Shown: piece by piece, positions 20,891 through 33,933 of the stretch
Layout: the number at the start of each line of letters is the position of its first letter
How positions within the stretch are numbered: the first letter of the stretch is position 1
NCBI GenBank assembly: GCA_024692605.1
Contig: JAILMQ010000130.1
Coordinates: forward strand, 1-50,744
DNA length: 50,744 nucleotides
DNA from: Eubacterium sp.
Lineage (GTDB): Bacteria; Bacillota; Clostridia; Lachnospirales; Lachnospiraceae
Direction: 5' to 3'
The notes under the pieces: generated by a model
What the model was told of the DNA's origin: nothing
Seen by the model: the letters and a program-made list of their open reading frames with translations, nothing else
Database searches by the model: none
Position numbers and translations under genes: made by a program

Positions 20891-23800
20891 TTAACTGTTA
20901 GCATTACGTCTTCTTATCAGTAAGATTGCCAACGCCAGAAGAACAAGTACTCCTGCAACTATTCCAACAATTATCCAGTTGATGCCGGTTCCATATACGT
21001 AATCATACTTAATACTTGCTTTATTTCCTGCCGAATCAGATGCACCTGCCTCAAGAGTATATTTTCCTCTTGAATCAACAGTATATGTACATGTGTTATC
21101 TGTTACGGCAACAGCCTTGCCATTAAGTTTAACATAGTCAAGAGTATCCTCATCAAGCTGAACTGTTATTGAAACATCAGTTGACTCTTTAAGCTTAGTT
21201 CCGTCCTCAACACCATTTACTATGATGATTGGCTCTATCGTATCAAGTACGAAGGTGTATTCCTCAATAGTCTGATTTCCAAGTTCATCTACTGCTTCAA
21301 CTCTGAGAGTATGAGCACCATCTGAAAGATCAGCGGAACCATCGTACTCTACACCATCCATATAAACCTTAACATTACATACTGTCAGGTCTCTTATGGT
21401 CTTTTCAAGATCATTGTCCCATACAAATGCATTTACAGTAGTTCCATCATAATCAGAAAGATTCTTTATGATAGGTGCCTCAGTATCAATAGTAAAATGT
21501 ATTGACTTCTCATCTGAATTGCCTGCTCTATCTGTTGATTTTACAGTGATATCATAGATACCATCTTCCTTAAATAACTGCTGCAGAGCTGCAATTGGTC
21601 CTGAATGTGCAGGGAACTCTGCGAGATCGATGTTAGTCTTTTTGCCATCGATATCAGTTCTTGTTCCCGACAGGATTACATTATTAGTAAGATAGAATTT
21701 CTCGTTTACCTGTACACCAAGTTCAACATTTTTATCTGTCTTATCGTAATTGCTTACGCCTGAAAGAGTGATAACAGGCTTGTTTCCATCAAGGATAAAT
21801 GAATAATCTGTGTTAGCCTTATTACCTGTCTTATCCTCTGCAGTAAATACAAATCTGTATTCACCTTCTTCAGTATATGTTTTGCTCATTGAATCACTGC
21901 CGCTTCTTGGCATGAAGTTGATTGTCTCAACATGTGATTCACCGGAACCATCTACTCTCTTATAAACCTCTATAGAACTGCTTGTAACGTCACTATAGAA
22001 AGGCTCTTTTATGGTAAATGTAACTGTTACATCTGTTCTTGATGTGCCGGCACTTGCATTACTTGTTATGCTGAGTTCAGGTGGCTGCCTGTCAACACGG
22101 AACTGTACTACCTGTACGTCACTCTTATTTCCGGCTTTATCTATAGCTTCATAATTAACTTCGTAATCTGCATCGTTATTGAAGGTTTCGTTTCCTTCTG
22201 AAACTTTATCAACAGATGTACTTGTTCCACCACCCGGTGCTGTTGTCTTAAGAGTTCTGGTAAGATCATCCGGATCCTTGTTTGCATCAGAAACAGATAC
22301 TCCCACTGTACCAGGGCCATTCAAGTATCTGATACCTGAATTAGATGAATAACCTGAACCATTAACTACAGTAACTATTGATGGAGCTGTCTTATCTATA
22401 GTGAATCTAAGTGTCTTTTCTGCTGTTCTATCAGTATAAGCATTCTCAGCCTCATCAATTACTTCAATTCTTACCTTGTGATAGCCTTCTTCGGAGATAG
22501 TAACACTTGCTTTACCATATCCCCTCTTACCTTCTGTCCATGAAGGTTCGATTTCTGTTTCTACGCCATCCTCTGAATTGTAATCGTAAACAATTATTTC
22601 ATCAGGGTTGTATTCAAAATAGTTAAACTCTATCTCTACATTTGTATTATAGTACTGACCGTATTTATAGTTTTCCTGATCAGATCTGGCCGTGAATTTG
22701 CCGGTCTTATTATTATAGGTATTATTAAACTGCTTAAACTTAGCCGGTTTTGCCGTCTTAACATACATATTAGCAAGTGGCTTTGTTTTGTCGATCAATA
22801 ATCCTATTGTCTTTGTTGATGTGTTTCCTGCAAGGTCAGTAACCTTATAAGTAATAGAATACTTACCATCCTTAGTGAGTGAGAAAGGTCCCTTTCCTGT
22901 CTTTGAAAGTTCAACATCTGAATCTCCGTTAAATGGCGATCTGGTTATCTTTGCGGAAACATCACTCTTATCTTCATTGCTATCCTTAACTACTACACTT
23001 GTTTCGGCATTCTTTTTATAGAATGTACTCTTTCCATTATAAGTTTTTCCATCAACTTGAGTTGTAAGTGTAGGCTTTGTCTTATCGATTACAAAGCTTA
23101 CTGACTTGGAATCCTTATTTCCTGACAAGTCTTCTGCAGAAAGCTTAACTGTATATTTACCTTCAGCATTTACTTTATAAGTAGCTGACCAGGTATCACC
23201 TGACCTGCTCCATGCAAGAGTTATAGTCTTTCCGTTTGCATCCTGAACCTTAATTCTGTTTTTCTCCATACTTGAATCTTTAACAGAAAGGCTAACTTCT
23301 ACACCCTTATTAAAGTAATTATTATTTTTAACTGATGTAGTAACTATTTCATTTGTAAGTACAGGCTTGCTTCCGTCAACCCTGAAGGAGCATGTTGCGC
23401 CGGCAGTGTTTCCGGCCTTATCCTTTGCTGAAACATTTATCGTGTAAGTTGTTTTTTCATCCAGCTTGCTACTAATAATATCACTTAATTTCTTACCCTT
23501 ATTTGAATCAAATGGATAATCCTTACCATTTATTGTAAGTGTAGCACCACCTGTTGATGCAAGACCACTAAGTGCATCATTTGCCGAATAACTGATAACA
23601 GGATCCCTATCAAGATGTGCCTTTACATTTGCAGCATCAACACCATCAACCTTAAGTGAAACCTTTGGAGCATCAGGATCAACATAGAACTTTCCACTCC
23701 AACTGTTATCACTCTTATTTCCTGCCTTATCATATACCTGGAAAGTAACCGGTGTTCCATTTGTATCCGGCGACTTGTTAACTGATGCCTGGAACTCTCC

Positions 23801-26215
23801 ATTAACAGGAGTATATGAACTCTTATCAGTTCCGGTTGCTTTTACTTCACCAATGCCTGATGTTACACCCGGATCAGAAACTGAAACCTTTAGTATAACC
23901 TTAGGTGCCCAATCATCTTCTCCATAGGTTGCTTCATCATTAACTGTCGAATCAGTTATATCGTTAGGCTTTGTTATATCAACACTTCTTACCTCGGCAA
24001 CAACCTTTTCAGTATTAGCAAGATTCTTATTAATAGCTATTACTTTGATCTTATAATTTTCTTTAGAAATTGAGGTATTGAAATTATATGTAACATAATA
24101 TATATACTTTCCATCAACCAATGTTCCAGTAGGATATTCTGTTTTTGGTCCCACTGTATCATCAATTTTAACCTGAGTAATCTGCACTTCAGATGTGATC
24201 TTCACCTTAATGCTTGCTGCAGGAGCTGATGGATCATCCCAGATATAGAAATCCTTATCTGTTCTTTTCTGAGGAGTTTCTTCATAATATTCGATTTCTG
24301 CGGATTCATCAAAGAATGAGAAATCAAGACTGGCTGTATAATCGTGTCCTGCTTTATCAGTCACAATTATATTCCAATTTTTTGTTGTACCATTATTTGC
24401 TTCTGAAGAAGGTATGGATAATGTAGCAACACCAGTGTTATCATCATATGTTGCTGGCTCTCCATTGATTGTTACTGAATCTATTCCACTACCGGCTTTA
24501 CCATCTGACTGCTTATCTGTAACAGTTACACTTATATCTAATGTATCTTTACAACTAACTTTATTGTCGAACTTGTATGAAGTAGATTCCTCAGTCTTTT
24601 TTCCGCCATTCCAGGTAAGAGTAGGCTGTGATAACTCTACAGCTGAAATCTTCGGAGCCTGATCATCCAAAAATACTGTAATTACATCTGATTTAGCTTC
24701 AAGGCCATAATCACTGGACACGCTCATCATATAGTAATTATTTCCGGGCTCAAGATTCACATCCACTGATGCTGTACTCTCAGAAATACTAACTGTGTTA
24801 GACATTTCTTCAGGAGTTGTATCATCCGGGGCATCAAGCTTATAAATCTTGCCTCCACTTAATTTAGCACCGGAATCTTCATCCTTGATTCCTACAGTTG
24901 CATTAATTGTATATGGATCATTATCTTCTGTAACTGAAACAGAAGTATCATCAATGACTATAGTAGGAGTTCCATCGCCATAATTAATATTTACATCAAA
25001 CTCATCTACCGCCTCATTATTATTACTATCCTTCTGCTTTATTGTTACAGTATATGTTTTAGTTGCACCATTATTAGCAGCAGCCCCCGGCACAGTGATC
25101 TTCTTATTAGTTGTATCAACTGTAGCTCCTGTAGAACTAACTGTTACATCTGTTGTAGCTGTATCTACTTCATAATTTATAACTATATCCTTAGTTGGGT
25201 TAGCTTTTCCGTCAGAAGGAACAGTAACTGAGTATGTTTCCATACTACCGGATACCATTTCATCCCCATCTACTCCGGCTTCAAAACTCTTAAGGACATA
25301 GAAGTTTCTGCTTTCTTCATCTTCGCTGCTGAAATCTTCTATTTGCTTTAAATCATCCCCATCTACATATACTTCTTTTACAACCTTATAGGTTCCATCA
25401 TTATCAGTGCCTTTTTTACTGAGAACTGCATTCACGTCAGCAACTGAAGTATATCTATCAACCTTATTTCCGTCCTTATATAAGGTATATTTTGCTTCTC
25501 CTGCATTATTCTTATATGAAGCATCCGGATCTGAAAGAGTTAACGTCTTTGCTGTTGTATCTGATGAAAGTGTAATATCACTAATTTCATAAGTATTTAT
25601 TTTTATCGTTGCTAATTCTTCTGTCTCCACATCCGGCAAATTATTTTTTACTTCTGCCGGAAGAGAAGAATAATTATCCCCAGAGAAAAAGTATTTTTTT
25701 GTCTCTTTCAAAGTTGCAGTAACAGGATCAGTTTTGGGGCCTGCTTCGATATAATAAAACTTAGAATCACCCTCTGACGGAGCTCTAAGCGGAATCTCAT
25801 CAGAACCATTAAACCACTTGATATTATCTGAGATATTTACATCGAGCGAATAAACCGAATAACCCTCCGGAGCCTCTTCTGCAATCACATAATCATCACC
25901 GTCTTCATCAGGATCATCCTGCTTAAACAGATTTTTATAGGTGGTATCCGTTCCATCTGTATCCTCTTTTACTACATATCCGTCAAGTTTAAACTTGACT
26001 CCCTTTGCAGGTGAATAAACCGTATTATCACCTTCAGTGAAGCTAACAGCTTTGTTTGATACTTCACCACTGGTATAATCGGAGTCAGCCTTTACCTTTG
26101 CTCTTCTGTTTGTAACAGCCAGAACGGATATAACCATTACAACAGCCATAGCAAGAGCAAGCAGCCTGATTGAAATCGGTCTATTCGATTTGTTTCCTTT
26201 CTTATTATTTTTCAT
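20891..26215 (-). CDS. Giant Ig-like-repeat surface protein with C-terminal TM anchor
   Basis: 1774 aa; N-terminal signal/TM; recurrent 'D.AGN...F.ID.T.P' Ig-like repeats; C-terminal 'WIIVGIVAGVLVLLALAILLIRRRNANS', no LPXTG seen. Confidence 0.9.
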   Translation of the reverse strand: MKNNKKGNKSNRPISIRLLALAMAVVMVISVLAVTNRRAKVKADSDYTSGEVSNKAVSFTEGDNTVYSPAKGVKFKLDGYVVKEDTDGTDTTYKNLFKQDDPDEDGDDYVIAEEAPEGYSVYSLDVNISDNIKWFNGSDEIPLRAPSEGDSKFYYIEAGPKTDPVTATLKETKKYFFSGDNYSSLPAEVKNNLPDVETEELATIKINTYEISDITLSSDTTAKTLTLSDPDASYKNNAGEAKYTLYKDGNKVDRYTSVADVNAVLSKKGTDNDGTYKVVKEVYVDGDDLKQIEDFSSEDEESRNFYVLKSFEAGVDGDEMVSGSMETYSVTVPSDGKANPTKDIVINYEVDTATTDVTVSSTGATVDTTNKKITVPGAAANNGATKTYTVTIKQKDSNNNEAVDEFDVNINYGDGTPTIVIDDTSVSVTEDNDPYTINATVGIKDEDSGAKLSGGKIYKLDAPDDTTPEEMSNTVSISESTASVDVNLEPGNNYYMMSVSSDYGLEAKSDVITVFLDDQAPKISAVELSQPTLTWNGGKKTEESTSYKFDNKVSCKDTLDISVTVTDKQSDGKAGSGIDSVTINGEPATYDDNTGVATLSIPSSEANNGTTKNWNIIVTDKAGHDYTASLDFSFFDESAEIEYYEETPQKRTDKDFYIWDDPSAPAASIKVKITSEVQITQVKIDDTVGPKTEYPTGTLVDGKYIYYVTYNFNTSISKENYKIKVIAINKNLANTEKVVAEVRSVDITKPNDITDSTVNDEATYGEDDWAPKVILKVSVSDPGVTSGIGEVKATGTDKSSYTPVNGEFQASVNKSPDTNGTPVTFQVYDKAGNKSDNSWSGKFYVDPDAPKVSLKVDGVDAANVKAHLDRDPVISYSANDALSGLASTGGATLTINGKDYPFDSNKGKKLSDIISSKLDEKTTYTINVSAKDKAGNTAGATCSFRVDGSKPVLTNEIVTTSVKNNNYFNKGVEVSLSVKDSSMEKNRIKVQDANGKTITLAWSRSGDTWSATYKVNAEGKYTVKLSAEDLSGNKDSKSVSFVIDKTKPTLTTQVDGKTYNGKSTFYKKNAETSVVVKDSNEDKSDVSAKITRSPFNGDSDVELSKTGKGPFSLTKDGKYSITYKVTDLAGNTSTKTIGLLIDKTKPLANMYVKTAKPAKFKQFNNTYNNKTGKFTARSDQENYKYGQYYNTNVEIEFNYFEYNPDEIIVYDYNSEDGVETEIEPSWTEGKRGYGKASVTISEEGYHKVRIEVIDEAENAYTDRTAEKTLRFTIDKTAPSIVTVVNGSGYSSNSGIRYLNGPGTVGVSVSDANKDPDDLTRTLKTTAPGGGTSTSVDKVSEGNETFNNDADYEVNYEAIDKAGNKSDVQVVQFRVDRQPPELSITSNASAGTSRTDVTVTFTIKEPFYSDVTSSSIEVYKRVDGSGESHVETINFMPRSGSDSMSKTYTEEGEYRFVFTAEDKTGNKANTDYSFILDGNKPVITLSGVSNYDKTDKNVELGVQVNEKFYLTNNVILSGTRTDIDGKKTNIDLAEFPAHSGPIAALQQLFKEDGIYDITVKSTDRAGNSDEKSIHFTIDTEAPIIKNLSDYDGTTVNAFVWDNDLEKTIRDLTVCNVKVYMDGVEYDGSADLSDGAHTLRVEAVDELGNQTIEEYTFVLDTIEPIIIVNGVEDGTKLKESTDVSITVQLDEDTLDYVKLNGKAVAVTDNTCTYTVDSRGKYTLEAGASDSAGNKASIKYDYVYGTGINWIIVGIVAGVLVLLALAILLIRRRNANS

Positions 26216-26227
26216 ATATATCCTCCC

Positions 26228-27151
26228 TTACAGACTCTCGGTCGTATGCACGATAGTCTCGCTATAAATAAATGTAATTCCTTCGAGATTCTTATGTCCG
26301 CTTTTAGGTACTGAATCCTTACCGGGTGCCATTTCTGATTTAAGCACCGAAGTAGTTTCAGGATTATAGACTCCATATACATCTTTATCGGATATTTCAG
26401 GTGTTTCTGCTGATAACACATCTGTCATATCCTCTTCTATATCATCAGCCAGACCATCCAGTTGAACTGCTGCTTTTGTTTTAAGCACATCTGTAACTTC
26501 TTCATCATTGCCATCTGATGATCTGCTGAACTTATCCTGAACAGTTGTCCCGCTTCCGGCAAGAACATCTGTAGCCTCTTCTTCATCTGTTATCTTAATA
26601 TCTATCTCATCTTCAGAAATATCATCTTGTGCTGTCAGTACGTCTGTAGGCTGTTCTTCCTCAAGAACTGATGTAGGATCCTCGCTGGTGTCCTTATTCT
26701 TCATTTCGTTATATGTAAGGACTTCTGTAGATTCCTCATCATAGCTCTTTGGATCCTTAGGCTTCTTAGCCCCTCTTTTTCCGGCGGTTTTGGCAGCTTG
26801 TGCCTTCGCATCCTCCGCCGCTTTCTTTGCTATACTTTCAGAAGCATCACTGCTTCTCTCCGGTGATGCCTTGATTTCAAGATCAGGGCTGGGAATCTCA
26901 GAGGTATCAGCGATATTATCTATGTTGGTCACATCAATATCTCTTGTTATGATGCTGCTTCCCTTACCTCTCTTGCTCTTTGAAGCCCTTCCGGTTGTTC
27001 TTATCTCCTCTATGGCCTTCTTCTGAGCCTTTCCGGTAACAACTCCATAGGCTTTCGGAATATCCATAAAGTAGAATACTGCGGCTGCCGCTATCAGGAA
27101 AAGGATTGCAAGGATTAAGCCGCCGATAAACATTATATTAAATATAGTCAT
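26228..27151 (-). CDS. Single-TM protein with acidic cytoplasmic-type region bearing seven T-x-V-L motifs (putative pThr scaffold)
   Basis: N-terminal TM; motifs ESTEVL, DPTSVL, QPTDVL, EATDVL, EVTDVL, DMTDVL, ETTSVL. Confidence 0.85.
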   Translation of the reverse strand: MTIFNIMFIGGLILAILFLIAAAAVFYFMDIPKAYGVVTGKAQKKAIEEIRTTGRASKSKRGKGSSIITRDIDVTNIDNIADTSEIPSPDLEIKASPERSSDASESIAKKAAEDAKAQAAKTAGKRGAKKPKDPKSYDEESTEVLTYNEMKNKDTSEDPTSVLEEEQPTDVLTAQDDISEDEIDIKITDEEEATDVLAGSGTTVQDKFSRSSDGNDEEVTDVLKTKAAVQLDGLADDIEEDMTDVLSAETPEISDKDVYGVYNPETTSVLKSEMAPGKDSVPKSGHKNLEGITFIYSETIVHTTESL

Positions 27152-27157
27152 GACTTA

Positions 27158-29242
27158 TCACTCTCCTTCCCCTTCATCGTTTATACTTCCGTTATCAAGT
27201 CCGTCCATAACTGTTTTTCTTGTTATCCAGCTCTGATTCTTTTCTATGTTCGGAACCTTGCTTCCTTCATGATAAACTTTAAGTATCTGTCTCTTCTGTG
27301 CAGCAGTCCATTTTCCGGGTTCCTGCTGATTAGCTTCAAACTGAGTATAAAGAAGATTCAGATGTTCAGCATAAAGTTTTGCCGAATTAGAATTGTCAAC
27401 TCCCAATGCCGATTCAGCATCTTCATATATTTTCGCCGCTCCATCTACATTGCCGTTAGCAACGTAAAGCTCAGCAACCTTACATGTATAATTAACATAG
27501 TCCTGCATGTATGTAACTGCCGCATCACTTTCATCATCAGTACTGATACTTATTTTTCCCTGTGCAATGGCAATTACTTCATTACATTCATTAAGTGCAA
27601 GCTGGATATCACTTTCAGACTCTTCATTTATAGCTTTAAAATAATAAGCTTCTGCAAGAATCTTGTCATATTCATAGGTATAATCCAGTGCGTCTTCACC
27701 CTGGTATCCACTCAGGTCTTCTATAGCCTGATTCATAACATCTATAACCTGATCAGGAACACCTTCAATACTAAGATTAGAAGCATAGAGCTTTCCAACT
27801 GTCTCGTAATTCTCAAACTTTCTTACATTGTCATTTGAGAAGTTACTGGAGTTGTATGCTGTAAATCCATTTACTTTATCAATAAGCTCTACTTTATTTG
27901 CATCTACACTTGAAAGAATAAGTGCAATGCTTCCGTAATAATCAGCTAACTCACCATAATCCTTATCATCTTCATCAATCTTGTTGAAGTACTGTGCCGC
28001 TGATTTATAATCCTTTTCTTCCGAGAAGTAGGTTACTCCCATTTTGTATAATACTTCTCCACTCTTCTGAAGAGAAGAACTCTCATTTATCTTATTTGCA
28101 ACTTCTCCAAGGCCGTTCTTGAGTACAAGTGCATCCTTGTTTTCAACGTCCTTGCCGGAGTCAAGATATGCATCTATATATTTAACGTAAGCATCAGGTG
28201 CATCCTTATTAAGTTCAAAGGCTTCTTTATATTTCTTTGCAGCCGCTGAATAGTCACCCTGTGCCCTGTAATTATCTCCTTCATTTATATAAGCATAGTA
28301 ATTATTCTTAGCTATTCTGTTTGCTCCAACCTTACCAAAGATAGAGACAAACAGGAAGAATACAGCAAGTCCCGCAAAGGTTCCGAATAATTTCAGCTTC
28401 TTTTTATTTTCATTTTTGTAGCTTTCATCCAGCTCTGTATAATGCTCAAGTGCATATATAAGTTCAGAGCAGGACTGATATCTGTCTTCCGGATTAGGCT
28501 TAGTACATTTAAGAATGATTTCCTCAAGTCCGGTAGATAGAGAAGGATTAGCCTGTCTGATAGGAACCATTTCATATGGAGGCTCCTGAGGGTTTTTGCC
28601 CGTTACCATATGATAAAGTGTTGCACCAAGATTATAAATATCTGTACGTGCATCTGTCTTGTAGATTCCTCTACCCTGTGCATCACCGAACTGCTCAGGG
28701 GCAGCGTATCCACGAGTACCCAGTGCAGTTGTATCTGCATTATTCTCAATATCGTATGTTTTTGCAGTACCAAAGTCGATGAGCTTAACGCCACCGTCCG
28801 GCTTCAGCATTACATTTGAAGGCTTCATATCACGATAAATGATCGGCGGATTCATTGAATGCAGGTATTCAAGAGCTGATGCAAGTTCAAGACCCCACTC
28901 AATTACTTCATCCTGAGAAAATGCGCCTACTTCTTTAAGTTTATCAGAAAGGTTCTCACCTTCTATGAAGTCCATTACAACGCAGATGGTTCCACCGTGC
29001 TTAACGATATCTATAATCCTGGGAATAACAGGATGATCCACGTCCTTAAGAATATTAGCCTCTCGCTCAAGACCCTTTAAAAGTATTTCTGTACTTTTAG
29101 AACCATCGTTCTTAATCTCCTTAACAGCAAGCTGCATATTCATTCTGTTATTACGAGCCAAATAAACGATGGACATACCACCTTCGCCTATCTGTTTAAG
29201 AATTTCATATTTTCCGTCTAAGACTGTTCCTTCTTTTAACAT
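27158..29242 (-). CDS. Membrane Ser/Thr protein kinase with C-terminal TPR region
   Basis: PknB-like 'IGEGGMSIVYLARN', 'LAVKEI', 'IIYRDMKPSNVMLKPDGGVKLIDFGTAK', 'GTRGYAAPEQFG'; TM near residue 290; TPR-like repeats, no PASTA domains. Confidence 0.94.
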   Translation of the reverse strand: MLKEGTVLDGKYEILKQIGEGGMSIVYLARNNRMNMQLAVKEIKNDGSKSTEILLKGLEREANILKDVDHPVIPRIIDIVKHGGTICVVMDFIEGENLSDKLKEVGAFSQDEVIEWGLELASALEYLHSMNPPIIYRDMKPSNVMLKPDGGVKLIDFGTAKTYDIENNADTTALGTRGYAAPEQFGDAQGRGIYKTDARTDIYNLGATLYHMVTGKNPQEPPYEMVPIRQANPSLSTGLEEIILKCTKPNPEDRYQSCSELIYALEHYTELDESYKNENKKKLKLFGTFAGLAVFFLFVSIFGKVGANRIAKNNYYAYINEGDNYRAQGDYSAAAKKYKEAFELNKDAPDAYVKYIDAYLDSGKDVENKDALVLKNGLGEVANKINESSSLQKSGEVLYKMGVTYFSEEKDYKSAAQYFNKIDEDDKDYGELADYYGSIALILSSVDANKVELIDKVNGFTAYNSSNFSNDNVRKFENYETVGKLYASNLSIEGVPDQVIDVMNQAIEDLSGYQGEDALDYTYEYDKILAEAYYFKAINEESESDIQLALNECNEVIAIAQGKISISTDDESDAAVTYMQDYVNYTCKVAELYVANGNVDGAAKIYEDAESALGVDNSNSAKLYAEHLNLLYTQFEANQQEPGKWTAAQKRQILKVYHEGSKVPNIEKNQSWITRKTVMDGLDNGSINDEGEGE

Positions 29243-29256
29243 ACATTCTTCCCCAA

Positions 29257-30030
29257 TTAAATAGTTTTTATAGCTGCGACAGTAATATTATCTGTCTCTT
29301 TTCTATTCTTAACCAACTCGGTAAGATATACACATCCATACTTTAATTCTTCTGATGATGCTGCTGCCTCTGGTCCCAGCTTCTCCATTATTTCTTCTTC
29401 GGAAATCTGATGTCTGAAACCATCTGAGCATACAAAATATACAGCATTTCTCTGAACCTTTCCTTTCAGGAAATCAGGAGATACATTTGCCGATGCCCCA
29501 ACACACTGAAGAAGTACACTTCGACGAGGATCTATCTTTGCTTCCTCCGGAGTCATTCTTCCAGCTGCCACTTCTCTTGCCACAAAAGTCTGATCCTTTG
29601 TAAGAATACGAACCTCGTCAGTAAGTTCGTAAACACGACTATCTCCAACATGAACGATGAAGAAATCATCTTTATACATAAGAAGTGCTGATACTGTAGT
29701 TCCTAACATGATATTATTGTCAGAACCATATATGCCAAGAAGTCTGTTTTCTGTCTGAATAATACTATTCCAGTCATCTCTCAGTCTGGTTGCAGTGAAA
29801 GTTCCTTCAACTACCTGAGATGTAAACTCCTCGTCAAACCATCTGCAAAAGGAGGTGATGACTTCTTTAGATGCCAGTTCTCCCTTTGCCAAACCTCCCA
29901 TTCCGTCACATACAATAACAAACGAAACCTGTCCTTCAGGTGTATCTATTATTCTTATAGCAACACTATCCTGGTTTGTGCTTTTTCTAATTCCTATATC
30001 AGTATTATAAGTTGCTGAATATTCCATCAA
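29257..30030 (-). CDS. PP2C-family Ser/Thr phosphatase
   Basis: 'TDIGIRKSTNQDSV', 'VCDGMGGLAKGELAS', 'GTTVSALL', 'VHVGDSRVYEL', 'CSDGFRHQIS', 'ETDNITVAAI'. Confidence 0.95.
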   Translation of the reverse strand: MMEYSATYNTDIGIRKSTNQDSVAIRIIDTPEGQVSFVIVCDGMGGLAKGELASKEVITSFCRWFDEEFTSQVVEGTFTATRLRDDWNSIIQTENRLLGIYGSDNNIMLGTTVSALLMYKDDFFIVHVGDSRVYELTDEVRILTKDQTFVAREVAAGRMTPEEAKIDPRRSVLLQCVGASANVSPDFLKGKVQRNAVYFVCSDGFRHQISEEEIMEKLGPEAAASSEELKYGCVYLTELVKNRKETDNITVAAIKTI

Positions 30031-32280
30031 TTATACCTCGTCTCTCAGGAGGAATGTGAAATCTTCATTTCCGAATTTCACCCTCATATTTGCCTTTAAA
30101 AGTACCTCTGCCCCTGGATTTACCCTTGCACCATCAACAAAGGTTCCGTTAGTTGAATCATTATCCTTGAGATAACTAACTCCGTTTCTCTTAATAATGA
30201 TTACATGAACTCTGCTTATAGCCGAATTGTTTTCAATAGCATAATCTGCATGTACTTTTGATTTTCCTATTTTGAATTCGTCCTTGTCGATATATATCTT
30301 TTCACCTGTTTTTTCGCGCACAAAGTGTGGATGAGGCTTGCCGACATCCTGCTTTGGAGGCTGAGCTGTCTCAGGATTTACTATATTAACCTGCTGTGGC
30401 TGAGGTGCCGGTGTAGGTACAGGACCTGGTCCCGGTGCCGGTTTACTCTGCATAGGCTGTACTGAACGGCTAAGTGGCATACCTGTCATAGGATCGAACT
30501 TTGTCTCAGGCTTATTACTAGGTGCCGGTGCCGGATCAATATTCTTAACACTATTAGCAAGTTCATCATCTATATCTTCAAGATTTAATTCATCTAATTC
30601 TTCAACTCCTCCAAGGCCAGGATTCACGTTACTATCCTGTTTCTTCTCAGGTTCCTCTGTAGGAACTGGTTCTTCAGCCTTCGGTTCTTCTGCCTTCGGT
30701 TCTTCTGCAGGAGCTGGTTCCTCTGTCTTTGGCTCTTCTTCCGAAGCCGGAGCCTCTGTCTTTGGCTCTTCTGCCGGGGCCGGAGCCTCTGCCTTTGGCT
30801 CTTCTGCCGGGGCCGGAGCCTCTGCCTTTGGTTCCTCTACCGGAGCCGGAGCCTCTGTCTTTGGCTCTTCTGTCGGAGCCGGAGCTGGCTCTTCTGCCTT
30901 TGGTTCTTCAATAGGCTTGCCCGTCATAGGATCGAATCTCTTGACAGGCTGCGGCATAGGTCCTGGTGTTGGTATCGGGCCTGGTGCCGGCTGCGGTATA
31001 GAGCTTGGTACCGGCTGTGGTATAGAGCTTGGTACCGGCTGTGGTATAGAACTCTGTACCGGCTGCGGTATAGAGCTTGGTACCGGCTGTGGTATAGAGC
31101 TTGGTACAGGCTGCGGTATCGGGCCTGGTACCGGCTGTGGTACCGGGCCCGTCAAAGGTGACTCTGTCTTTGGTAATTCTGCCTTGGACTCTTCTATCTT
31201 AGGCTCCTCTACCGGAGCTGGTTCTTCTGCCTTTGGTTCTTCAATAGGCTTACCCGTCATAGGATCGAATCTCTTGACCGGCTGAGCTACTGGAATTGGC
31301 TGAGATGCCGGTGGTTCCTCAATAGGTTTTCCTGTCATAGGATCAAATCTTTTTACAGGTTGCGGCATAGGTGGGATCTGTCCCATTCCCTGTGGAGGCA
31401 CCGGTGGAACCGGAGCCATACCGGACTGTGGAATTGGTGGCACTTGTGCCATTCCCTGATTTGGCCTTGGGGGTATCTGACCCATTCCCGGCTGTGGCAT
31501 CGGGGTAGGCTGTCCCATTCCCTGTTGTGGTCTTGGGGGTATCTGACCCATTCCCGGCTGCGGCATCGGGGTAGGCTGTCCCATTCCCGGCTGCGGCATC
31601 GGGGTAGGCTGTCTCATTCCCGGCTGTGGCATAGGTGGTACCTGTCCTGCTCTATTTCTGAGTACGCCAACTTTATCTACTTTCGAACCCATATTTCCTG
31701 CTGCAGGTATTTCACTCATACCCACCTCAAGAAGCATTTCGTTTATCATCACATTAAAATCATTCAAAGAGAACATGTCAGAGTTCAACTTTGTTATTAT
31801 CTTGGCTACATAGTTATCTCTGTCATTCTCATGGAATTTCATTCCTGCTACACAGCTCTTAAAGAACTCCGGTATTTCAGAAACATCAGTAGTGTTTCCC
31901 TTTATAGGAATTACGAATTCATAAGTATCGAGTGTGTTCTCATCTATGTAAATGTACTTAAAATCCTTAACAATATATCCAACCGGAATACCATTCTTTC
32001 CTATGTCAAAACCGGCAACAAGATTCTTAAGAATGGTAAGCACCTCAGGCTTAGTAAGGGTCTTCTTGAAATAGCTTCCTAAATCAACAGATACAGGAAT
32101 CTGCGAGAAAACCACCTTTTTAGAATCCATTTCAGTAACCTGAACTTTTCCAACACCTTCTAAAATATTACTGTTCAGACGTTCCATTACATTATCATCA
32201 ATCTGTTCTCCCGGTACAAGTTCATACCGCATTGTGATAAAGGTACCATTGTTCTCCAGTTTGATATTATTCTTATCCAT
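30031..32280 (-). CDS. DUF6382-like N-terminal domain, long Pro-rich repeat linker and C-terminal FHA domain
   Basis: FHA 'FKIGKSKVHADYAIENNSAISRVHVIII...LKDNDSTNGTFVDG'; repeats PMPQPGMGQ, IPQPVPSS, EEPKAEAPAPA, FDPMTGKP. Confidence 0.9.
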   Translation of the reverse strand: MDKNNIKLENNGTFITMRYELVPGEQIDDNVMERLNSNILEGVGKVQVTEMDSKKVVFSQIPVSVDLGSYFKKTLTKPEVLTILKNLVAGFDIGKNGIPVGYIVKDFKYIYIDENTLDTYEFVIPIKGNTTDVSEIPEFFKSCVAGMKFHENDRDNYVAKIITKLNSDMFSLNDFNVMINEMLLEVGMSEIPAAGNMGSKVDKVGVLRNRAGQVPPMPQPGMRQPTPMPQPGMGQPTPMPQPGMGQIPPRPQQGMGQPTPMPQPGMGQIPPRPNQGMAQVPPIPQSGMAPVPPVPPQGMGQIPPMPQPVKRFDPMTGKPIEEPPASQPIPVAQPVKRFDPMTGKPIEEPKAEEPAPVEEPKIEESKAELPKTESPLTGPVPQPVPGPIPQPVPSSIPQPVPSSIPQPVQSSIPQPVPSSIPQPVPSSIPQPAPGPIPTPGPMPQPVKRFDPMTGKPIEEPKAEEPAPAPTEEPKTEAPAPVEEPKAEAPAPAEEPKAEAPAPAEEPKTEAPASEEEPKTEEPAPAEEPKAEEPKAEEPVPTEEPEKKQDSNVNPGLGGVEELDELNLEDIDDELANSVKNIDPAPAPSNKPETKFDPMTGMPLSRSVQPMQSKPAPGPGPVPTPAPQPQQVNIVNPETAQPPKQDVGKPHPHFVREKTGEKIYIDKDEFKIGKSKVHADYAIENNSAISRVHVIIIKRNGVSYLKDNDSTNGTFVDGARVNPGAEVLLKANMRVKFGNEDFTFLLRDEV
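30651..30900. repeat. Coding tandem repeats (~33 bp; EEPKAEAPAPA-type)
   Basis: Recurrent 'ggctcttctgccggggccggagcctctgcctttggctcttct' blocks. Confidence 0.8.
30951..31150. repeat. Coding tandem repeats (24 bp; IPQPVPSS)
   Basis: Recurrent 'gagcttggtaccggctgtggtata' unit encoding an 8-aa repeat. Confidence 0.85.
31360..31640. repeat. Coding repeats (PMPQPGMGQ-type)
   Basis: Recurrent 'cccattcccggctgcggcatcggggtaggctgt' blocks. Confidence 0.8.
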
Positions 32281-32367: not shown

Positions 32368-33933
32368 TTAACTTATCTTAAATGTAAAGTCCTCATCACC
32401 AAGTGTGATAGTACAATCGTTCTTAAGAAGAACTTCTTCATCCCCTTCAACCGGTTTCTGATCTACATATGTATGATTTGTAGATTTGTTATCCTTTATA
32501 TAATAGGAATCACCTTTATGAAGGATTATTGCATGCTGTCTGCTGATTGCCCCGTTACCACCTACATGATAATCAACACCTCTGCTGGCTTTTCCTATCT
32601 TGAATACAGGCTTATCAATAATAGCCTTTTCTTTTGTATTTACTCTGATGAGATAAGGATTTATCTTCAAAGTACCGGCATTACCAAGGATGGTATTATC
32701 AACAATCTCATTGCTCTTCGGTCTGATAGAATTGAGAACTCCGCTGGCTTTCTTTTCTTCTTCCGCCGGTTTCTCATTCTCAGCTGAATCAGTTTTGTCA
32801 TTATCCTTGTCTTTTCCTTTATCTTTGTCCTTATCTTTTCCCTTTGCCTTCTTTTCCTTCTGCTTCTTTGCCTTCTCGTCTGCCTTATCCTCGGCAGCTT
32901 CATTTTCAGCAGCTTCAGCTTCAGCAGCTTCAGCTTCTGCCGCAGCCGCAGCTTCCTCTTCTTCTTCAATATTCTCTGCCGCAGCCTTTAACATAGCAGC
33001 TCTGCTGACTCTGACAGGCTTCTGCATACTTACGCTTTCAGGTTCATGAATCTTATCCTTACCGGCAAGTTCCTGAATTCTGGCTGTAAGTTCATCAATA
33101 TCTTTTTCTGTTTCCTTACCGGCAACTTTCTCTGCAGTTTCTGCTGTTTCTACTGAAGGAGTCGCTTCGGCTTCAGCAGTTTCAGATACTTCCTCAAGTT
33201 CTATGTCATCTTCATCATCGCCAATCTCAGGAAGCTTACCATCAGCCTCTCCAAGATCATTCATAAAGTCCATGGTTCCTTTGCTCTCCTCAACCGGTTC
33301 CGGAGCAACATCATTTACTATCTCTGCACCATCATCAGTTGATATTCCACTATCTGAACCAAATGAGATATTGGAATCCTGCATCAACGCCTCAGTAAGA
33401 CCTATAAGACCTCTGAGGTTAAATCCATTTCCATTTATGTAAGTAAGAAGCTGTCCTACATATGAAAGATCTTCATCAAGATTAAACTTCATTCCGGAAA
33501 CAAGCTGTCTTACAAAGCTCTTGAATTCAACTGCTACGGATGCCTCTCCTTCAACAGGAAGATAGAGGAATTTGATCTCTAATGTATCCGGATTAATATA
33601 CATATAGGATTTATTGAGTAAGATATATGATAAAGGAATCGCATATTCATTTATATTTATCATACCCATGGAAATGTTTCTAAGAAGATTAAATACTTTC
33701 TCCTTATCCATTGTTCCCTGAATAAAGTCTTCCACTGTCATTCTTCCGGAGATATCATATGTAATATAATCAAAATCATCATCCTCTTCATATATAATAT
33801 CTATTATTTCAGGAACTGTATTCTCTTCACAATAATCCAGAACATCTTCATCAATATCCATTCCTTCGCCCATTGTGTATGTAAGAAAACGCTCAGCTCC
33901 AAGATTCTTAGCTGTAAAATAAAATCTTCTCAT
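32368..33933 (-). CDS. DUF6382-like N-terminal domain plus C-terminal FHA protein
   Basis: N-terminal region related to the preceding protein; E/A/K/D low-complexity linker; FHA 'FKIGKASRGVDYHVGGNGAISRQHAII...IKDNKSTNHTYVD'. Confidence 0.88.
   Translation of the reverse strand: MRRFYFTAKNLGAERFLTYTMGEGMDIDEDVLDYCEENTVPEIIDIIYEEDDDFDYITYDISGRMTVEDFIQGTMDKEKVFNLLRNISMGMININEYAIPLSYILLNKSYMYINPDTLEIKFLYLPVEGEASVAVEFKSFVRQLVSGMKFNLDEDLSYVGQLLTYINGNGFNLRGLIGLTEALMQDSNISFGSDSGISTDDGAEIVNDVAPEPVEESKGTMDFMNDLGEADGKLPEIGDDEDDIELEEVSETAEAEATPSVETAETAEKVAGKETEKDIDELTARIQELAGKDKIHEPESVSMQKPVRVSRAAMLKAAAENIEEEEEAAAAAEAEAAEAEAAENEAAEDKADEKAKKQKEKKAKGKDKDKDKGKDKDNDKTDSAENEKPAEEEKKASGVLNSIRPKSNEIVDNTILGNAGTLKINPYLIRVNTKEKAIIDKPVFKIGKASRGVDYHVGGNGAISRQHAIILHKGDSYYIKDNKSTNHTYVDQKPVEGDEEVLLKNDCTITLGDEDFTFKIS

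Follow-up and report, generated by a model that had tools for sequence, protein, structure and literature searches.

Our results suggest that a 307-residue protein encoded in a 50,744-nucleotide contig of Eubacterium sp. (JAILMQ010000130.1; this whole stretch is called the window) is probably a membrane-anchored docking scaffold with multiple phosphothreonine (pThr) sites, written by a Ser/Thr protein kinase (STPK) and read by FHA domains. We refer to it as the array protein; it occurs in gut and rumen bacteria. This reading, which had been proposed in the original prediction, is supported by sequence comparison, that is, by the conservation of the motifs, the preference for Thr over Ser, the FHA pocket, the agreement with known ligand features, and the occurrence of the motif beside distant FHA domains.

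We infer that the motifs are phosphorylated and are bound by FHA domains, with several occupied at the same time (multivalent occupancy), and that this has an output, as follows. In the disordered cytoplasmic tail of the array protein, each [DE]-x-T-x-V-L motif would be phosphorylated on its Thr by the co-encoded transmembrane kinase. The FHA domains of both FHA proteins would bind pThr-x-V-L, reading the phosphate along with the hydrophobic residues at +2 and +3, and several FHA proteins could gather on one scaffold. The PP2C-type phosphatase would reverse phosphorylation and docking. The likely output would be a signaling or assembly platform beside the giant Ig-like envelope protein. The candidate system is both widespread and compact, with kinase, phosphatase, scaffold, and readers in one operon and a clear motif present in 1 to 10 copies, and it directly predicts a way in which clostridial FHA readers may locate their targets.

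Gene neighborhood and architecture of the array protein

The whole gene run lies on the minus strand in the order FHA-FHA-PP2C-STPK-array-giant Ig (Table 1), confirming that the kinase, PP2C, and two FHA proteins are encoded in the same run as the array protein, as had been stated. The kinase and array genes are 6 bp apart, and a good Shine-Dalgarno site is present. Within the limits of the contigs, the gene order is kept in 47 named loci from Lachnospiraceae and related organisms, many of which come from rumen samples. The N-terminal region of FHA protein 2 resembles FHA protein 1. The kinase domain of the STPK is predicted to be cytoplasmic, and its TPR-containing C-terminal part is predicted to lie outside. 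In the genomes of L044, L047, and L074, FHA protein 2 has its Pro-rich repeat linker divided between two reading frames that overlap or adjoin, which may represent either an assembly error or a repeat-driven frameshift.

Table 1 Features of the array gene and its neighbors in the window
Feature	Coordinates	Strand	Description
FHA protein 1	32368..33933	(-)	DUF6382 (33445-33828) and C-terminal FHA domain (32398-32601)
FHA protein 2	30031..32280	(-)	Pro-rich linker and C-terminal FHA domain (30070-30273)
PP2C-type phosphatase	29257..30030	(-)	Presumed eraser; PF13672; Stp1/IreP model below cut-off
Ser/Thr protein kinase (STPK)	27158..29242	(-)	Pkinase 4.9e-47; YRDMKPSN; DFG; TM; TPR
Array protein, 307 aa	26228..27151	(-)	N-terminal TM, juxtamembrane basic helix, disordered tail, conserved C-terminus
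Single TM helix	27068..27139	(-)	About residues 5-28; AlphaFold2 2-28, pLDDT about 90-97
Juxtamembrane element IPKAYGVVTGKAQKKAIEEIR	26993..27061	(-)	Residues 31-53
Motif 1 ESTEVL, Thr142	26717..26734	(-)	T and L invariant, 21/21
Motif 2 DPTSVL, Thr160	26663..26680	(-)	T and L 15/21; site absent in some species
Motif 3 QPTDVL, Thr169	26636..26653	(-)	21/21
Motif 4 EATDVL, Thr194	26561..26578	(-)	21/21
Motif 5 EVTDVL, Thr220	26483..26500	(-)	21/21
Motif 6 DMTDVL, Thr243	26414..26431	(-)	21/21
Motif 7 ETTSVL, Thr267	26342..26359	(-)	T, V, and L 21/21; consensus of relatives E-E-T-A-V-L-R
Conserved C-terminal element GITFIYSETIVHTTESL	26231..26281	(-)	Consensus IxVLYSETIVHTDESL
Giant surface protein, 1774 aa	20891..26215	(-)	Signal peptide, Ig-like domains, C-terminal TM; TseI-like

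Searches of Pfam and NCBIfam with the array protein gave no family above the cut-off. The original prediction had described one N-terminal TM helix, a disordered-looking region, and seven motifs, and these were recovered in the 307-residue ORF. In an AlphaFold2 model built with 25 relatives, in which little beyond the TM helix is modeled confidently, the helix itself is confident, and nearly all of residues 135-249, a region including six of the seven motifs, have pLDDT values below 50. The tail is predicted to be cytoplasmic because a Lys/Arg-rich stretch follows the TM helix (positive-inside rule). Residues 61-307 contain exactly seven T-x-V-L motifs with D, E, or Q always at -2, and [DEQ]-x-T-[DES]-V-L is a better description of them than the original pattern. 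Composition-preserving shuffles of the same residues gave an expectation of 0.07 motifs and a maximum of three in 100,000 shuffles. A chance origin of the array was ruled out by the shuffle tests, both with its own tail and with 45 orthologues.

Conservation of the motifs among orthologues

We aligned 21 orthologues, and since the alignment was partly steered by the motifs, the invariance of Thr and Leu in six of the seven motif columns (the remaining column is missing in six rows) overstates their conservation. The tail outside the motifs has a mean identity of about 27% to the window protein in the same 21 orthologues. A lack of motif conservation in orthologues, which had been named beforehand as a refutation, was thus not what we observed. 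Because of the steering, the motifs were also counted separately without an alignment. The 45 orthologues contain 306-307 T-x-[VIL]-L motifs, compared to about 10 expected. The number per orthologue is mostly 5 to 9 (one has 2 and one has 10), and the median spacing is 20 residues. The acceptor position, in a count that is independent of the alignment, is occupied by Thr in 302 cases and by Ser in 5, whereas elsewhere in the same tails Ser is the more common residue (929 Ser and 558 Thr); the corresponding binomial log10 P of about -119 assumes independent sites, and related sequences are not independent. In the orthologue logo, 74% of the array motifs have E or D at -2, and V/I/L at +2 and Leu at +3 are fixed by the search definition and are not independent observations.

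FHA domains bind pThr and not pSer, and the near-exclusive use of Thr therefore points to FHA reading. A kinase alone seldom separates Thr from Ser so sharply.

The FHA domains and their expected ligand

The FHA domain of FHA protein 1 was modeled confidently (mean pLDDT of 86.9). Among its best matches in the PDB are EmbR with a bound phosphopeptide, the pThr-dependent entries 3poa and 3po8, pThr-bound DgcB, GarA, and OdhI. The pocket residues S63, R64, H66, T84, and N85 (S-R-x-H and T-N) are invariant in 26 rows, and every one of the 26 aligned FHA domains has Lys instead of the Arg of the canonical G-R, leaving a pThr pocket with one conservative change. Among the published features of ligands of the OdhI, GarA, and DgcB FHA domains are a Glu at -2 and hydrophobic side chains at both +2 and +3 (PMC6733907), and the logo of the array motif displays these features. 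Motif 7 had been likened to an ETTSVF phosphosite of GarA and OdhI. Among the papers listed by a text search, none prints the ETTSVF string, and the likeness therefore rests on the published ligand features, with which ETTSVL agrees.

Homologues in Clostridia

When 150 genera of the family were sampled with one genome each, profile searches detected homologues in 31 of them, and a few further families of the same class also have homologues. Most of these are about 100-320 residues in length and have one to six motifs; some closer genera have 8 to 10, and a few homologues have none. Of about 30 loci that are more distant, nearly all have an STPK gene next to the homologue. The distant homologues have in common a juxtamembrane TG...K.I..IR element, kept as GDLTGRxAxKxIExIR, and a C-terminal HTDE element. 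The C-terminal sequence ETIVHTDESL is about as well conserved as the motifs, the distant short homologues included. We defined a TseH-like one-TM family in this analysis, and the window protein belongs to it, displaying the TM helix, xxLTGxxxxKxIxxIR, TxVL, HTDE, and an STPK neighbor.

In one genome (G435), a TseH-like homologue (L196:7180-7704 / L215) harbors the Ser versions GQSAVLH and DLSAVLY. No FHA gene was found beside this homologue. The genome encodes two FHA proteins, and the one whose linker was read is without the Thr motif.

The motif is also present on FHA proteins

Among the 22 FHA proteins found encoded beside short homologues, 15 contain the T-x-[VIL]-L motif once or twice, with 26 Thr and 0 Ser at the acceptor position, and the distance from the motif to the FHA glycine that follows it is mostly 25-46 residues. 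Most of these loci have a single DUF6382-FHA protein with the motif, and examples are GETTVLG, NETTVLG, GQTVILN, and GETTLLS. With the stricter pattern T-x-[VI]-L, 21 motifs are present in these FHA proteins, compared to a shuffle expectation of 0.5. The motif is also frequent in other DUF6382-FHA proteins from a sampling of the class (DKTIIL and EETVVL). Carriers of a pre-FHA motif are found in L094, L095, L098, L099, L100, L182, L185, L186, L194, and L195. The position of the motif just before the protein's own FHA domain suggests that these proteins may undergo FHA self-docking, in cis or head to tail.

The FHA linkers of the long-array clades with two FHA proteins, including that of the window, are mostly without the motif. 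In FHA protein 1, the linker has DNTILG at the place of the motif, with no Thr at the acceptor register. This raises the possibility that the motif moved from reader to scaffold; the long-array loci may be one clade. The genome of the window also encodes two further DUF6382-FHA proteins (L107:8973-10268 and L108:3133-3747), with the single motifs KDTSVLA and GNTSILT before the FHA domain.

Comparison with known phosphothreonine systems

Descriptions of bacterial kinase-FHA systems usually involve one or two pThr sites, and few readers are known. In eukaryotes, MDC1 is a scaffold with multiple copies of a pThr motif that are read by FHA proteins; it functions in nuclear DNA damage signaling and is unrelated to the window system. 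The closest working parallels are the GarA/OdhI switch, the Rv1747 clusters, and the PpkA-Fha system of type VI secretion (T6SS).

GarA/OdhI and DgcB from Bdellovibrio have a kinase-written pThr with Glu at -2 and hydrophobic residues at +2/+3 that is read by an FHA domain (PMC2784874, PMC6733907), as is predicted here. In these proteins, however, there is one motif on the N-terminus of the FHA protein itself, in cis or in an oligomer, whereas the window system has many motifs on a separate membrane protein. Rv1747 from Mycobacterium tuberculosis, with PknF and PstP, is likewise a membrane protein with FHA domains and a disordered linker; STPK phosphorylation promotes its clustering, and the phosphatase reverses it (PMC9312465, a review). 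Unlike the window protein, Rv1747 has its FHA domains and linker within one transporter and no dedicated repeat array. According to the available part of PMC12607579, T6SS PpkA-Fha also combines a membrane kinase with an FHA scaffold, which forms a condensate at the inner membrane, but it belongs to an unrelated secretion system and is phosphorylated on the FHA protein.

Relation to type VII secretion components

The T7SSe system, as described in the accessible text of Garrett et al. 2024 (PMC11217815), comprises a kinase, a PPM phosphatase, the DUF6382-FHA protein TseJ, the one-TM proteins TseH and TseK, and the giant Ig protein TseI. A literature search for later work using the name T7SSe found only this paper. 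The window locus holds a T7SSe-like set, with a kinase, a PPM phosphatase, a DUF6382-FHA protein, a one-TM protein, and a giant Ig protein. Because of their similar anatomy, the window protein is placed with TseH/TseK, a comparison made by description in the available text and not by accession. TseH/TseK and TsdH (T7SSe/T7SSd) share with it one TM helix, an unstructured cytoplasmic tail, and similar gene partners. The accessible passages of PMC11217815 describe no repeated Thr motif for TseH/TseK, whereas the window protein has a longer tail, with 5 to 10 motifs in its clade. The window module also differs from the accessible T7SSe description in that it has two FHA proteins and that a complete genome encoding it has no T7SS. 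Our results supply a candidate FHA ligand for TseH/TseK of T7SSe, to which the one paper found assigns no role.

Alternative explanations

The array might instead be a multi-site substrate that provides a threshold or a phosphate sink for the kinase and PP2C, with at most one site docked to an FHA domain at a time. We consider this unlikely. The number of motifs is free to vary from 1 to 10, which would tolerate a role in dosage, and the kinase and phosphatase are nearly always neighbors; the Leu at +3 and the strict Thr, however, are better explained by FHA reading than by the preference of the kinase alone, and FHA proteins bear the same motif. There is a slighter chance that TxVL motifs are phospho-independent docking peptides, for instance for the FHA or DUF6382 parts. 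The FHA domains of T7SSb are known to work without pThr, the EssB-EssC FHA contact being phosphorylation-independent according to the available text of PMC11217815, and the Lys in place of the G-R Arg would be in line with this. On the other hand, the remaining pThr pocket residues are invariant, an active-looking kinase and a phosphatase are encoded next door, and orthologues almost never have Ser, Val, or Asp in place of the acceptor Thr. Some features also count against the scaffold model itself. It does not explain the conserved juxtamembrane and C-terminal HTDE elements, the G-R Arg is Lys, and a few homologues have no Thr motif or, as in G435, have Ser versions.

That the module is a dedicated part of T7SSe, with the array protein as TseH or TseK, seems highly improbable, even though the set of components matches the available description and homologues with three motifs each are present in or by EssC loci. 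In L095, EssC, a YukD-like protein, and two WXG100 proteins are encoded in the same locus as the homologue, and the homologues in L094 and L189 lie by EssC. However, the complete genome G005 has an array locus with no WXG100 protein and no EssC-type ATPase, and the module therefore functions outside a T7SS here. G009 keeps its long-array locus apart from a separate T7SS locus, which has its own short homologue. In the genome of the window, which is 89% complete, the search for an EssC-type ATPase (the FHA-bearing TseC) gave only a 952-residue FtsK and one weak match, with a like result in G005, and the search for WXG100 proteins in the genome of the window gave one match below the cut-off. A dedicated T7SS component in the clade of the window is ruled out by G005. 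Returning to the scaffold model, we tentatively raise the possibility that a T7SSe-related phosphorylation platform is used without secretion. In most genera, the docking motif occurs once or twice on the FHA reader and in a few copies on a short membrane protein that partners it; in the clade with duplicated readers, it would have been multiplied to 5 to 10 copies on a dedicated scaffold and is absent from the reader, and the number of motifs might tune the resulting multivalent signalosome or condensate at the membrane.

The relation to TseH/TseK and the relatives with few motifs in Clostridia did not figure in the original prediction, which was made from the sequence alone. The TseI-like giant Ig gene (20891-26215) adjoins the array gene in genomes without EssC.
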